From Saprospiraceae bacterium (GTDB taxonomy: Bacteria > Bacteroidota > Bacteroidia > Chitinophagales > Saprospiraceae): 64,000 nt of DNA. Under the pieces are notes generated by a model, which worked only from the letters and a program-made list of their open reading frames with translations, was not told the DNA's origin and did no database searches. The stretch is taken from positions 1 through 64,000 of the forward strand of contig JALHLK010000003.1 of assembly GCA_022844565.1 (NCBI GenBank), written 5' to 3'. Made by a program: the position numbers and the translations under genes. Below, one piece after another: positions 43,515 through 48,115 of the stretch (position 1 is the stretch's first letter; every line of letters begins with the position of its first letter).

Positions 43515-44165
43515 ATGATTAAAGACATAAATAATAGTAAGCTGGAAGGCATATTTGAAAAAGAGTTTATCAAAGAGCTCTACCAGTACAGTGAATTGAA
43601 AAAATTTGTAGCCGGTGATGTCATAATGGATTACGGCAAATACATCAAAATGTTGCCTGTCATTCTAAGCGGTACAGTCAAAGTACTTCGCAAAGATGAT
43701 AATGGCAAAGAAATTCTCTTATATTATCTAGCAGACAATGAAAGTTGTAGTATGGCTTATGGATGTTGTATTACAGCTAAAAAGAGTGAGATCAAAGCTG
43801 TAGCTGAGGATGATGGCGAAATGCTTGCTATACCTTTTGAGAAGCTCAATGATTGGCTTTGCAAGTATCCAAGTTGGAGAAATTACATCTTCAATTCTTT
43901 CAATGACAGATTCAATGAATTATTATTATCTTTTGATACAGTTGCTTTTGGCAATATGGATACTCGAATAACCAACTATTTGGCGGAAAAACATAATAGA
44001 ACTGGCAGCGCAGTGATAAAAGTATCTCACTATCAAATTGCTGATGAGTTAGCTACCACAAGAGTAGTAGTCTCAAGAATTTTAAAACAATTTGAGAATG
44101 ATGGTAAAATGTTGTTGTACCGAAATGAGATTAAGTTGTTGAACTCGTTTTTTAAAGATAAATAG
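43515..44165 (+). CDS. Crp/Fnr-family transcription regulator with Cys cluster
   Basis: A 216-residue regulator, the last gene of the sulfur locus. The cyclic-nucleotide-binding-like domain (about 20-130) carries cysteines at 78, 84, 85 and 116 (ESCSMAYGCCITAKK). The C-terminal winged helix (about 150-212) has the recognition region TTRVVVSRILKQFEND. cAMP-contacting residues are not evident. Clustered cysteines suggest sensing of oxygen, redox or sulfane sulfur. Three dyads of Crp/Fnr size lie at upstream promoters of this locus and are its probable targets. Confidence 0.9.
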   Translation: MIKDINNSKLEGIFEKEFIKELYQYSELKKFVAGDVIMDYGKYIKMLPVILSGTVKVLRKDDNGKEILLYYLADNESCSMAYGCCITAKKSEIKAVAEDDGEMLAIPFEKLNDWLCKYPSWRNYIFNSFNDRFNELLLSFDTVAFGNMDTRITNYLAEKHNRTGSAVIKVSHYQIADELATTRVVVSRILKQFENDGKMLLYRNEIKLLNSFFKDK

Positions 44166-44897: not shown

Positions 44898-45560
44898 TTA
44901 ATTTTCAATTTTCACCCCATCCAATAACTTATTCTCCAATGCAATTCTTACAAGCCCTGCCGTATTCCTGGCATTTAATTTAGAAAGTAAGCTAGCTCGA
45001 TGTGATTCTACTGTTTTAAGGCTAATATATAATGTATCTGCTATTTCCTGTGTTGTAAATTCTTCGATAATAAGTTTTAAAACCTCTTTTTCTCTCCTTG
45101 AAATTTTAGGTAATTCATTGATGGTCTTACTTCCAGCTTTTCGCTTATTCATCAGGCTTTTCATAATACTTTCCGTAACTTCTTTACTAAAGTAAGATTC
45201 TCCTTTAGCTACAGTGCGAATGGCTTTAAGTAACTCATCTCTTCCTGTGTTCTTGAGTATATATCCTTTTGCTCCATTATTAAGTATCTCCTCTATAAAA
45301 CTCTCTTCATTAAACATAGTAATAGCAATCACTTTCAGATCAGGTTGTATTTTTAGGATTTCTTTGCAGACTTCCACACCATTTATGTCTGGTAAATTGA
45401 CATCTAATAGAATAATGTCAATTTTATGGTTTGAAATAAAATTGATAACACTTTTACCATCATAGCACTTACCTACGATTTCCAGATCTTTCTCAGACTC
45501 GAGAATGAGTTGAATTCCATCTGCAAACATGGCATGGTCATCAGCAACTAATACTTTCAT
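44898..45560 (-). CDS. NarL/FixJ-type response regulator
   Basis: The ATG at 45560 opens the receiver domain (MKVLVADDHAMFADG); a start 54 bp upstream adds only a tail. The product is 220 residues: a receiver domain with the phospho-acceptor in IILLDVNLPDINGVEVC (about D54), then a LuxR-type helix-turn-helix (SRREKEVLKLIIEEFTTQEIADTLYISLKTVESHRASLL). It is a two-component output protein. The likely partner kinase is the divergent gene at 46331-48115, on the far side of a 770-bp gap holding a candidate RNA. Confidence 0.93.
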   Translation of the reverse strand: MKVLVADDHAMFADGIQLILESEKDLEIVGKCYDGKSVINFISNHKIDIILLDVNLPDINGVEVCKEILKIQPDLKVIAITMFNEESFIEEILNNGAKGYILKNTGRDELLKAIRTVAKGESYFSKEVTESIMKSLMNKRKAGSKTINELPKISRREKEVLKLIIEEFTTQEIADTLYISLKTVESHRASLLSKLNARNTAGLVRIALENKLLDGVKIEN

Positions 45561-45801
45561 TATTTGATTTTTGATATTTATTTGACGATTTAGAAGACTT
45601 ATTTCTGATATCATAACTTATAAAACATTTAAAACGTTGCAAAGATTTATATTCTTATGATGGTAGCTACTCAATTATTCTTATAAATCTAAGTAATTTC
45701 CATTCATCAAAGATACTTGTAATATGTATCAAGAATACCTATGGTAAACCCTTAAAAAAAAATCAGTATATGTGCTAATGTTTTGTTGATTGTTTAGGCC
45801 A

Positions 45802-45809
45802 TATCTTTG
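45802..45809 (+). promoter_or_regulatory. Candidate -7 element before the small ORF/RNA region
   Basis: TATCTTTG fits TAnnTTTG; TTTTG (45781-45785) upstream is a possible -33 element, at a slightly short spacing (16 bp). It lies 20 bp before the 28-codon ORF. Confidence 0.45.
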
Positions 45810-45828
45810 TATTGTTAATATCAATAAT

Positions 45829-45915
45829 ATGAAAGAAATAAAACCATCAAACACAAGTACTACCGAAACATATTTTCTTTCGATTATATTGTTCTTAATA
45901 TGTGTTTTGGGCTGA
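45829..45915 (+). CDS. Small ORF, 28 residues, hydrophobic C-terminus
   Basis: Reads MKEIKPSNTSTTETYF then a hydrophobic stretch LSIILFLICVLG. It is preceded by a good -7 element at sensible distance. A peptide of this kind could be a small membrane protein, a leader peptide, or chance. Codon use is ordinary for the window. Function unknown. Confidence 0.35.
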   Translation: MKEIKPSNTSTTETYFLSIILFLICVLG

Positions 45916-45971
45916 TTTATTCAAAAGTGAAAGTTAGTTTTTTTAATTCATCATCATAACGTGTAAGTGAG

Positions 45972-46062
45972 AAATTGGGATTTGCTGGGTATAAGTGCAC
46001 AAACAATACGATCCTTAGTTCCTAATATTATTATTAAATGACCCTATACCCAGCACCAATTT
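45972..46062 (+). ncRNA. Candidate structured RNA: long stem with 51-nt apical loop
   Basis: AAATTGG (45972-45978) pairs with CCAATTT (46056-46062), and TGCTGGGTATA (45983-45993) pairs perfectly with TATACCCAGCA (46045-46055). This gives 18 pairs interrupted only by a 4-nt bulge (GATT). The apical loop is AT-rich. An intrinsic terminator follows at 46190. Together with the promoter at 45802 they could define a 280-410-nt transcript between a response regulator and its probable kinase. No known RNA family is recognised; strand is inferred from the terminator. Confidence 0.45.
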
Positions 46063-46189
46063 TTCCGTGATGCAATTAAAAAGTTGATATAACCAGCGTA
46101 CTAAAATGAGTTAAATATTAAAAATTAGATTCATTTTATATTCTAGGTGTTAAAATAAAGGAGTAATACTCATTGGGATTGACTATTGC

Positions 46190-46230
46190 AAAAGAAGACG
46201 CTCAAAAAGTTGGGTGTCTTCTTTTATTTT
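46190..46230 (+). terminator. Intrinsic terminator
   Basis: AAAAGAAGAC (46190-46199) and GTCTTCTTTT (46216-46225) form a perfect 10-bp stem, followed by ATTTTTAT. It lies 100 bp before the histidine kinase, with no annotated gene just upstream, so it must end the small-ORF/RNA transcript. Confidence 0.65.
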
Positions 46231-46330
46231 TATGTAAAAACTCATCCTTATTTTTGTGTTAAAAAGCAATTTTACTACACTTTCGTCCTAAAGTATTGGC
46301 TAATTTAAATAATTGTAATATATTTGTTTT

Positions 46331-48115
46331 GTGCAACTTAAGTATGTAATATTTATACTAATTTATTTCTCTACCTTTCATTTGTCATTCACTTGGGGGC
46401 AAAGGTTATTAAAAAAAGGAGATACAGAATTAAAACTTCAAAAAAACCTTGACGAAACGAGAGCAAATCGAGACTACGAATTAATTGCTCACTCCTATTT
46501 TCATCTTGCAGAATTTTATCAATATCAGAATAATGATCTTGAAAAGGCATTTAAAAACTATTTAATAGCTCGGCAATATTATATCAGAGTAAGTAATTTT
46601 GACCAAATTAAGGTTATTGATGAATTCATAGCAGATCGAAACATTGATCTCGGATTTTACGAAGAAGGACTAAATCTATATGAAGAACTGATTTCTTATT
46701 ACACTGCAAAAGGTGATAGTAATGAAATTGCCAAAATCTATCATAAGTGTAGTAAAGCATCCAAGCAACGAGGTGACTTAGAAAGTCAGATGAATTATCA
46801 AAATAAGTTGTCACTTTTCAAAGGTAAGGCAAATGCTGACCTGATCATTTCAATGATGATTGACAAAATAGAAAACTATATTCAATTAAAAGATAGAGAT
46901 AGTGCACTTATTGTTGCTTATCAAACGGCTATTTTGGCATCAAAAAGTAAAAATGATCGGGCACTAAGTAAAGTTTTTTATTACATTGGGATCATCAACC
47001 TTCTAAGCAATGACAAAGAAAAAACTTTCAAATATCTTGAAAAAAGCCTTGAATTTTCACCAAGCCAACAATTTAGTTCTGATAAAAAAGATGTCTTTTT
47101 TTCGCTGGCACAAGCTTATGAGAAATATGGTGAAAATGAAAAGGCATTAAAATATTACAAATCATATTCTTTTTTGAATGATAGCATTTTAAATCACAAT
47201 AGAATAGCTGCGGTCAATGAAATGGCTCAAAAGTTTAACATCTTAGAAAACAAAAAAAAGGTATCAAGTATTGAAATTGAAAAAGAGTCTGCTCTAAATT
47301 TGAATACTAGGCAAAGTAAATTGCTATATTTCGTAAGTGCGTGGGTATTGTTACTTTTATTGTTTATATACTTTCTAGTGAGGTTTTATATGCAAAAAAT
47401 CAATACAGAAAAAATCATCAATGATCAACAACATCAAATTGACGTTCAGAAAATTCAAGATCTCGAAAACAAAATAAAAATCAACTCCATGCAAGCAATG
47501 ATTCTTGGAGAAGAAAAAGAAAGAGAACGCATTGCAAAAGATTTGCATGATAGTTTGGGAGGATTGCTGAGCACAGTGAAATTGCAATTTGACAATGTAA
47601 GAGCTAAAATGAATGGTAGCTTACACAATGAGCAATATGACAAAGCATCAGACTTACTTGATACCGCAGTAAATGAAGTAAGGACCATTTCTAAAAACCT
47701 GCAACCTGCAGCATTAAAAAGATATGGCCTTGTAGCTTCAATCAATGATTTAATCTCAAGATTTTGTGGTGAAAATATGCCCGAGATATATTTTCAACAT
47801 TATGATTTGCCCGATCAAATTGAGGAATTGGTATCCTTGAGTATATACAGAGTAATTCAAGAATTACTCAACAACTCTATTAAATATGCTAACGCCAAAG
47901 AAATCTTAATCCAACTCAATGGCGAACTCGATGCAATATCGATCCAATACGAAGACGACGGCAATGGTTTTGATGTATCGACTATACCTAAGAAAGGCAT
48001 GGGTTTAGAAAATATTAATAGTCGTGTCAATTACTTAAAAGGTACCATATCTATTGAAAGTGTGCCTGATGAGGGTATATCGGTGATGGCGAGGATACCA
48101 TTGGTGATAGATTAA
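46331..48115 (+). CDS. TPR-containing sensor histidine kinase (HisKA_3 type)
   Basis: A 594-residue kinase starting with GTG. A signal peptide/anchor at the N-terminus precedes about 280 residues of tetratricopeptide-like helices (about 45-300) in the periplasm. A transmembrane segment (about 331-352) and a short coiled coil lead to the HisKA_3 domain with the phospho-acceptor in RIAKDLHDSLGG. The ATPase domain has the N-box NELLNNSIKYA and G-box EDDGNGFD...KGMGLENI. This is the NarX/LytS-like layout common in Bacteroidota with TPR sensors. It probably phosphorylates the divergent NarL-type regulator. Confidence 0.92.
   Translation: MQLKYVIFILIYFSTFHLSFTWGQRLLKKGDTELKLQKNLDETRANRDYELIAHSYFHLAEFYQYQNNDLEKAFKNYLIARQYYIRVSNFDQIKVIDEFIADRNIDLGFYEEGLNLYEELISYYTAKGDSNEIAKIYHKCSKASKQRGDLESQMNYQNKLSLFKGKANADLIISMMIDKIENYIQLKDRDSALIVAYQTAILASKSKNDRALSKVFYYIGIINLLSNDKEKTFKYLEKSLEFSPSQQFSSDKKDVFFSLAQAYEKYGENEKALKYYKSYSFLNDSILNHNRIAAVNEMAQKFNILENKKKVSSIEIEKESALNLNTRQSKLLYFVSAWVLLLLLFIYFLVRFYMQKINTEKIINDQQHQIDVQKIQDLENKIKINSMQAMILGEEKERERIAKDLHDSLGGLLSTVKLQFDNVRAKMNGSLHNEQYDKASDLLDTAVNEVRTISKNLQPAALKRYGLVASINDLISRFCGENMPEIYFQHYDLPDQIEELVSLSIYRVIQELLNNSIKYANAKEILIQLNGELDAISIQYEDDGNGFDVSTIPKKGMGLENINSRVNYLKGTISIESVPDEGISVMARIPLVID

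Follow-up and report, generated by a model that had tools for sequence, protein, structure and literature searches.

Comparison with relatives shows a conserved gene in Saprospiraceae that is linked to a divergently oriented response regulator of the NarL type; the gene's predicted parts are a promoter, a covarying stem, a nearly invariant 3' tail and a terminator. The predicted product is a free-standing, structured RNA of about 420 nt, lying here at about 45815-46231 of the window (the whole 64,000-nt stretch that was analysed). The first-pass annotation had proposed a regulatory RNA from the position between divergent two-component genes, and the comparative evidence now supports this proposal well: the stem carries compensatory changes, the regulator adjoins the RNA in 45 of 45 loci, and the RNA also stands free where no kinase follows. 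The most economical reading runs from the regulator to the RNA and on to an action in trans through the tail; we give a probability of roughly 0.6 to the RNA serving the two-component system as its dedicated output and acting in this way.

Locus, fold and covariation

The features of the locus are as follows.

44898..45560, minus strand: NarL/LuxR-type response regulator, with the conserved start MKVLVADDH (Response_reg 5e-28, GerE 2e-16)
45740..45785, plus strand: operator-like element, degenerate copy, GGTAAACCC..TCAGTATATGTGCTAATG (copy and spacing read by eye)
45802..45809, plus strand: -7 promoter element TATCTTTG (from the sequence; a similar element is found here in relatives with a loose pattern)
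45829..45915, plus strand: small ORF of 28 codons, MKEIKPSNTSTTETYFLSIILFLICVLG, its C-terminal half hydrophobic
45969..45993, plus strand: 5' arm of the main stem, with a bulge at 45979-45982 (folding, covariation in relatives)
45994..46044, plus strand: apical loop of 51 nt (folding)
46045..46065, plus strand: 3' arm of the main stem (folding, covariation in relatives)
46168..46189, plus strand: 3' tail of 22 nt, nearly invariant, ACTCATTGGGATTGACTATTGC, with the most conserved core GGATTGACTA (conservation in relatives)
46190..46231, plus strand: intrinsic terminator, hairpin 46190-46225 plus T-run (covariation)
46331..48115, plus strand: histidine kinase with HisKA_3 and HATPase_c domains

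The intergenic region (45616-46330) has the divergent response regulator on one side and the HisKA_3 kinase on the other. A longer ORF of the regulator extends to 45614, and a UvrY/SirA/GacA model scores 151 bits on the regulator, under the model cut-off of 280. The N-terminal part of the kinase is TPR-like (under Pfam cut-offs), and the protein has a hydrophobic segment that by eye looks transmembrane. Near the RNA locus there is also a Crp/Fnr-type regulator (43515-44165, plus strand), followed by an AIR carboxylase gene (purE-like) on the minus strand. The RNA region is single-copy, its sole match in its own genome being itself. It had been said to match no recognised RNA, which agrees with the Rfam searches: no family reached its gathering score in the window or in six relatives, and all matches of a permissive search fell far under their cut-offs.

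The stem that had been described from the letters alone, with 18 pairs, a 4-nt bulge and a 51-nt loop, is reproduced exactly by folding, with 45972-45978 and 45983-45993 pairing with 46045-46062, and the helix can be extended to 45969/46065 (11/11 complementary in I5, 9/10 in I14). The whole transcript (45809-46232) folds at -99.7 kcal/mol (z -4.8), a value equalled by none of 100 shuffles, and the stem region by itself gives z -3.07, equalled by 2 of 200. Across 52 loci, with 30 shuffles each, the leaders have a mean z of -3.65, and 43 of them lie below -2. The strong terminator likewise stands, and it is the only one in 45500-46500 (1 found vs 0.2 expected from shuffles).

Compensatory changes in homologues, which the first-pass annotation had named as a check, are present. 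When the joined arm pairs of 17 loci were aligned, 12 of 14 stem pairs showed two-sided changes (24 cells), which none of 500 shuffles reached, and sliding the partner by 1-3 columns lowered the pairing from 83.6% to 36-43% (at most 43.3%). This alignment is without the window, which has another bulge, and without L076, L077, L086, L087, L094 and L099, whose arms are shifted (6/23), and it holds L062, L068, L100, L080, L091 and L102 partly off register, which lowers the score. Swapping arms between loci points the same way: in 36 of 45 loci, window included (L072, L074, L075, L079, L083, L096, L098, L101 and L103 left out), a locus's own arms paired at a mean of -22.9 kcal/mol vs -10.9 with the arms of other loci, although the arms were picked by folding and are thus biased toward pairing. 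No equally good arm from another clade existed for 27 of these 36 loci, while nine had some; the window's own arms pair at -27.8 kcal/mol, equalled by none of 31 other-clade arms. The terminator covaries as well (11/15 pairs two-sided in 42 distinct sequences), as terminators commonly do. At its apex the closing pair (alignment A1, columns 56/61) splits evenly between A-U and U-A, with 21 each among the 42 distinct sequences, a clean two-sided switch. Many apical loops of the main stem contain a C-rich stretch, e.g. ACCCCAAA or ACCCTAAA, which recalls the C-rich loops of sRNAs.

The conserved tail and the search for its partners

The most conserved part of the RNA, absent from the first-pass annotation, is the tail at 46168-46189, directly 5' of the terminator. 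A DNA search of 199 genomes of the family matched 27, the RNA's own genome among them. What 22 of the 27 non-window rows have in common is one block, the 22-nt motif directly 5' of the terminator; the other five look like chance. Allowing one optional base and one R, the tail motif was found in 44 further stretches among 84,980 bacterial and archaeal species (one genome each), whose titles are mostly Saprospiraceae, the rest being Saprospirales, Chitinophagales, Chitinophagia, Aureispira and Bacteroidetes/Bacteroidota; these 44 loci were selected by the tail motif, so the invariance of the tail among them is partly circular.

With a covariance model of tail plus terminator, 76 of the 398 genomes searched in the family gave a match at E<=1e-3, and in 58 of the 76 it reached E<=2.1e-6. 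Outside the family, the best match at the order level was 3.8e-6 (198 genomes, own family partly included), and the phylum-wide search (296 genomes) gave one match beyond 1e-5. These two outside-family matches lack the regulator, the kinase and the tail core within 3 edits and were rejected, and no convincing RNA match was found outside the family in the order- and phylum-level searches. Five outside-family loci (L136-L139 and L271), without regulator or kinase and without the tail core within 1 edit, were put down to chance; two of them, L138 and L139, match the core at 2-3 edits. The own-family matches L140 and L141 also lack regulator, kinase and the core within 1 edit. In L271 (G645, another family), a partial CTCATTG..ACTATTACA precedes a terminator and adjoins tRNA-like sequence, with no regulator or kinase nearby. 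Among the diverged relatives reached by the model search, GGATTGACTA, or one change of it, is kept best; the tail variants are ATATTTAGGATTGACTATTG in one genus, AACTCAGAGGGATTGACTATTGC in two loci and degenerate forms in four loci of another genus. A mobile or viral origin was discarded, the tail motif being absent from viral contigs and the RNA single-copy.

Predicted folds do not make the tail stand out as open: it exceeds the leader only slightly (0.45 vs 0.40), being the more open of the two in 37 of 52 loci. The tail, not the stem, is likely to be the business end of the RNA. Besides the tail, an element resembling AGTTRGTTTT recurs on the 5' side of the main stem, in 37 of 55 leaders (e.g. 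L091, L102, L073, L081 and L084; at most 2 changes allowed), a count that stands without a valid control. This element could wobble-pair with the tail core, at a level that overall is not above shuffles, or it could be a protein site.

The complement of the tail did not lead to a conserved target, either as a 20-mer in 150 genomes or as a 12-mer in 25. That the tail is antisense to a conserved mRNA was rejected on the 20-mer search (up to 3 mismatches), as the sites among the matches listed were scattered and fell in RNA-less genomes too; these listed matches exceed those of the reversed control, itself a poor control that contains stop codons. The exact 12-mer complement had 56 sites, 34 of them away from the RNA, vs 13 for the reversed control, and reading the contexts of all 34 placed them mostly within or antisense to ORFs. 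A few 12-mer complements lie upstream of signal-peptide-like starts (L226 in G172, L260 in G135, and L236 with its sister L256 in G109/G188), too few for a claim; the L236/L256 sites come after tRNA-like sequence, and the gene at L260 is short or interrupted.

Pairing of the tail within the locus was no better supported. Against the regulator mRNA the mean z was 0.05 (41 loci). Against the kinase mRNA, a short window with the tail shuffled gave a mean z of -0.66, with 5 of 26 loci, the window among them, below -2, and the longer stretch up to the kinase start with the mRNA shuffled gave a mean z of 0.07, with 1 of 33 below -2. A pseudoknot between tail and leader likewise found no support (mean score 17.1 vs 16.4; 53 loci). 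Searches of 20 genomes for CsrA (PF02599) and Hfq (PF17209) matched neither in any of them, the controls being positive in 3 of 14 and 5 of 14, respectively, and we therefore take the RNA to be neither a Csr sponge nor an RNA of the Hfq type.

Regulator, operator-like palindrome and leader ORF

A divergent NarL-type response regulator adjoins the RNA in all 45 loci, window included. It was seen directly, upstream on the opposite strand, in 40 of 44, and for the contig-cut L062, L070, L093 and L103 it appears once more of each contig is included (as L011, L006, L013 and L159). Of 20 further regions, 15 have the regulator; L152 and L155 end with their contigs, and L154, L156 and L157 are weak model matches that are probably chance. 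Two contigs of G017, C64 and C67 (L152 and L153), both end at the RNA tail, with the kinase on one and the regulator on the other, which is an assembly break. In 33 of the 45 loci the kinase lies downstream of the RNA in the same orientation. Among the 12 without it, L063, L065, L082 and L089 are contig-cut (a longer stretch of L065, L014, has the kinase), and seven loci from three lineages (L061, L080, L099 and, via L017, L094; L083; L091 and L102) have a convergent ORF of at least 120 aa next after the terminator; by this criterion the next gene of L072 is undecided. Since the regulator always adjoins the RNA and the kinase does not, the RNA is tied to the regulator and not to the kinase, and since a convergent gene takes the kinase's place in seven loci, the RNA is free-standing.

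Close relatives of the regulator occur in 65 genomes of the family, of which 38 are without the RNA by the covariance model, and 20 of these 38 were examined. The tail was found within 1600 nt upstream of the regulator in none of the 20, and four had loose operator matches that look like chance; the kinase is downstream on the same strand in 15 and divergent in five. A tree covers 69 regulators, with six left out for being masked, interrupted or incomplete. One branch of this tree, weakly supported (68/59; 66% of 200 bootstrap trees), has all 50 regulators that come with the RNA on the same side.

The -7 element that had been placed at 45802 is there, at 45802-45809. Upstream of it, the relatives carry an operator-like palindrome, AGGGG-N-CCC-N-TGGGTG, and its loose form (AGGGG-N2-5-CCC-N10-20-TGGGTG, up to 3 changes) was found in 38 of 45 loci vs 5.8 of 45 in dinucleotide shuffles. 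The seven loci without it include three that are contig-cut and the window itself, which has the degenerate copy only. Between the start of the palindrome and the end of the -7 element there are 69-76 nt, the latter having been sought by a loose pattern that was applied only to the stretch 50-95 nt downstream. In a search of 26 genomes, a strict operator pattern turned up at 10 distinct sites, of which nine lie at the RNA promoter and one lies elsewhere (G002); it was without a match in 16 of the 26 genomes and missing at the RNA promoter in 17. This distribution fits a regulator with one main target, to which it would bind at the palindrome.

The same annotation had allowed at most a 28-codon ORF in the transcript. 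The ORF is indeed present, at 45829-45915 on the plus strand, and we would amend the reading of it: judging from the comparison of leaders, it is probably a real gene for a small membrane protein. In 21 of 55 leaders, some of them near-copies, there is a hydrophobic ORF, 25 codons or longer, whose start is no more than 70 nt from the promoter; shuffles give 1.35, and if only ATG starts are counted the figures are 18 vs 0.6. The dN/dS of the small ORF is 0.18 (L086/L087), 0.19 (L060/L085), 0.35 and 0.48 in two other pairs, and 0.28-0.95 across ten pairs of one clade; several of the dS values exceed 1 and leave the ratio unsure, and in the window's own trio (own genus) dS is saturated and the ratio not measurable. 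The leader peptide evolves fast, differs between lineages and is missing in others: by the same criterion, 34 of 55 leaders have no such ORF, yet keep tail and terminator. The 28-aa ORF had no NCBIfam match at E 0.01, short peptides being hard to match.

Possible roles and known counterparts

In the mechanism that we propose, the membrane kinase would sense a signal and phosphorylate the regulator. Once phosphorylated, the regulator would bind the palindrome, whose start is some 70 nt ahead of the -7 element's end, and would turn on the RNA, the main or even the sole gene under its direct control. The stem would stabilise the RNA, and the tail would pair with target mRNAs without Hfq, with the core GGAUUGACUA as the seed. 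In somewhat more than a third of the leaders studied, window included, the 5' part would also encode a small membrane peptide, which may feed back on the kinase. More tentatively, and at somewhat under even odds, one structured and partly peptide-coding RNA may be the system's sole direct output, making it an independent counterpart of Gac/Rsm and agr/RNAIII that works without CsrA and Hfq and has a new partner for its tail, either a set of mRNAs or an RNA-binding protein.

Instead of a pairing seed, the tail could be a site for a protein, with the RNA sequestering an RNA-binding protein (compare RsmY/RsmZ and RsmA). Its conservation over 22 nt exceeds the usual seed length, with the caveat that the selection of loci was partly circular, and this fits a protein site, as do the lack of a recurrent complementary target in the 150- and 25-genome searches and the AGTTRGTTTT-like elements in 37 of 55 leaders, for which there was no valid control. 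We nevertheless consider sequestration unlikely: CsrA had no match in any of 20 genomes and no candidate protein emerged, and each RNA has a single copy of the full tail, while RNAs that titrate a protein have several binding sites. If the tail were just part of an ordinary 3' UTR, the RNA would essentially be the mRNA of a small kinase-modulating membrane peptide, in the manner of MgrB, a small membrane peptide that exerts feedback on a kinase. The hydrophobic ORF near the start of 21 of 55 leaders (1.35 expected), with dN/dS of 0.18-0.95 where measurable, agrees with this, but 34 of 55 leaders dispense with the ORF while keeping tail and terminator, and conservation is far higher in the tail than in the peptide, which makes such an mRNA improbable.

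That the RNA is a regulated leader of the kinase gene, an attenuator or a riboswitch, is suggested by the 33 of 45 loci in which the kinase follows in the same orientation. The seven loci of three lineages in which the RNA is kept with a convergent gene next make this very improbable, and pairing of the tail with the leader or with the full stretch upstream of the kinase was not above shuffles, even if five of 26 loci had z below -2 in the short-window test. A hairpin and terminator that arose by chance in an AT-rich gap, or an element conserved only as DNA, is contradicted by the compensatory changes, the family-wide conservation and the fold z of -4.8, and we regard its probability as close to negligible.

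The favoured reading, with the RNA as the regulator's output acting through its tail, has partial precedents. GacA is a response regulator of the NarL type, as is the regulator here (Response_reg plus GerE). GacA is described as controlling only rsmY and rsmZ (PMC4866733). The regulator here may likewise act on an RNA gene alone: the strict operator pattern is found almost only at the RNA promoter, with 16 of 26 genomes having no strict match; unlike in Gac/Rsm, the Saprospiraceae RNA adjoins its regulator, is one RNA, has no CsrA match beside it, carries a small ORF in many loci and matches nothing in Rfam. RNAIII of Staphylococcus lies divergently beside two-component genes, and its peptide is delta-hemolysin. 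PMC9266662 gives it as a large structured RNA of 514 nt, the main effector of the two-component system agr, that encodes a small peptide. The likeness is that of a large structured RNA beside two-component genes, also with a small peptide ORF, and the differences are the lack of an Rfam match, the phylum, the peptide, and a conserved part that is the 3' tail and not C-rich loops. Two-component control of the Saprospiraceae RNA, as for RNAIII, is what we infer from its position and the conserved palindrome.

In Vibrio, LuxO drives the Qrr RNAs, which act by base pairing and use Hfq and sigma-54 (PMC12101431). There too a response regulator drives a small RNA, whereas here no Hfq match was found and the promoter has a -7 element of the Bacteroidota type. 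Closer in phylum are GibS and FopS, small RNAs of Bacteroides and thus of Bacteroidota; FopS has 14 paralogues, is bound by RbpB, carries a 5' seed in a single-stranded stretch ahead of its terminator, and has been deposited in Rfam (PMC11697453). The likeness to the present RNA would lie in a seed stretch before the terminator; the Saprospiraceae RNA differs in being single-copy, much longer, tied to a two-component system and without an Rfam match. A full-text search of open-licence PMC papers brought up no account of an RNA of this kind in Saprospiraceae. Two-component control of an RNA is a known idea; as far as searched, the novelty lies in this family and in the way its parts are combined.

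Two-component-controlled regulatory RNAs are best known from Proteobacteria and Firmicutes, and Saprospiraceae are common in wastewater. If the reading is true, Saprospiraceae would have a family of RNAs devoted to a single two-component system, which would offer a route to learning how an RNA acts without Hfq or CsrA, and how a conserved RNA acquires and loses a peptide-coding function.
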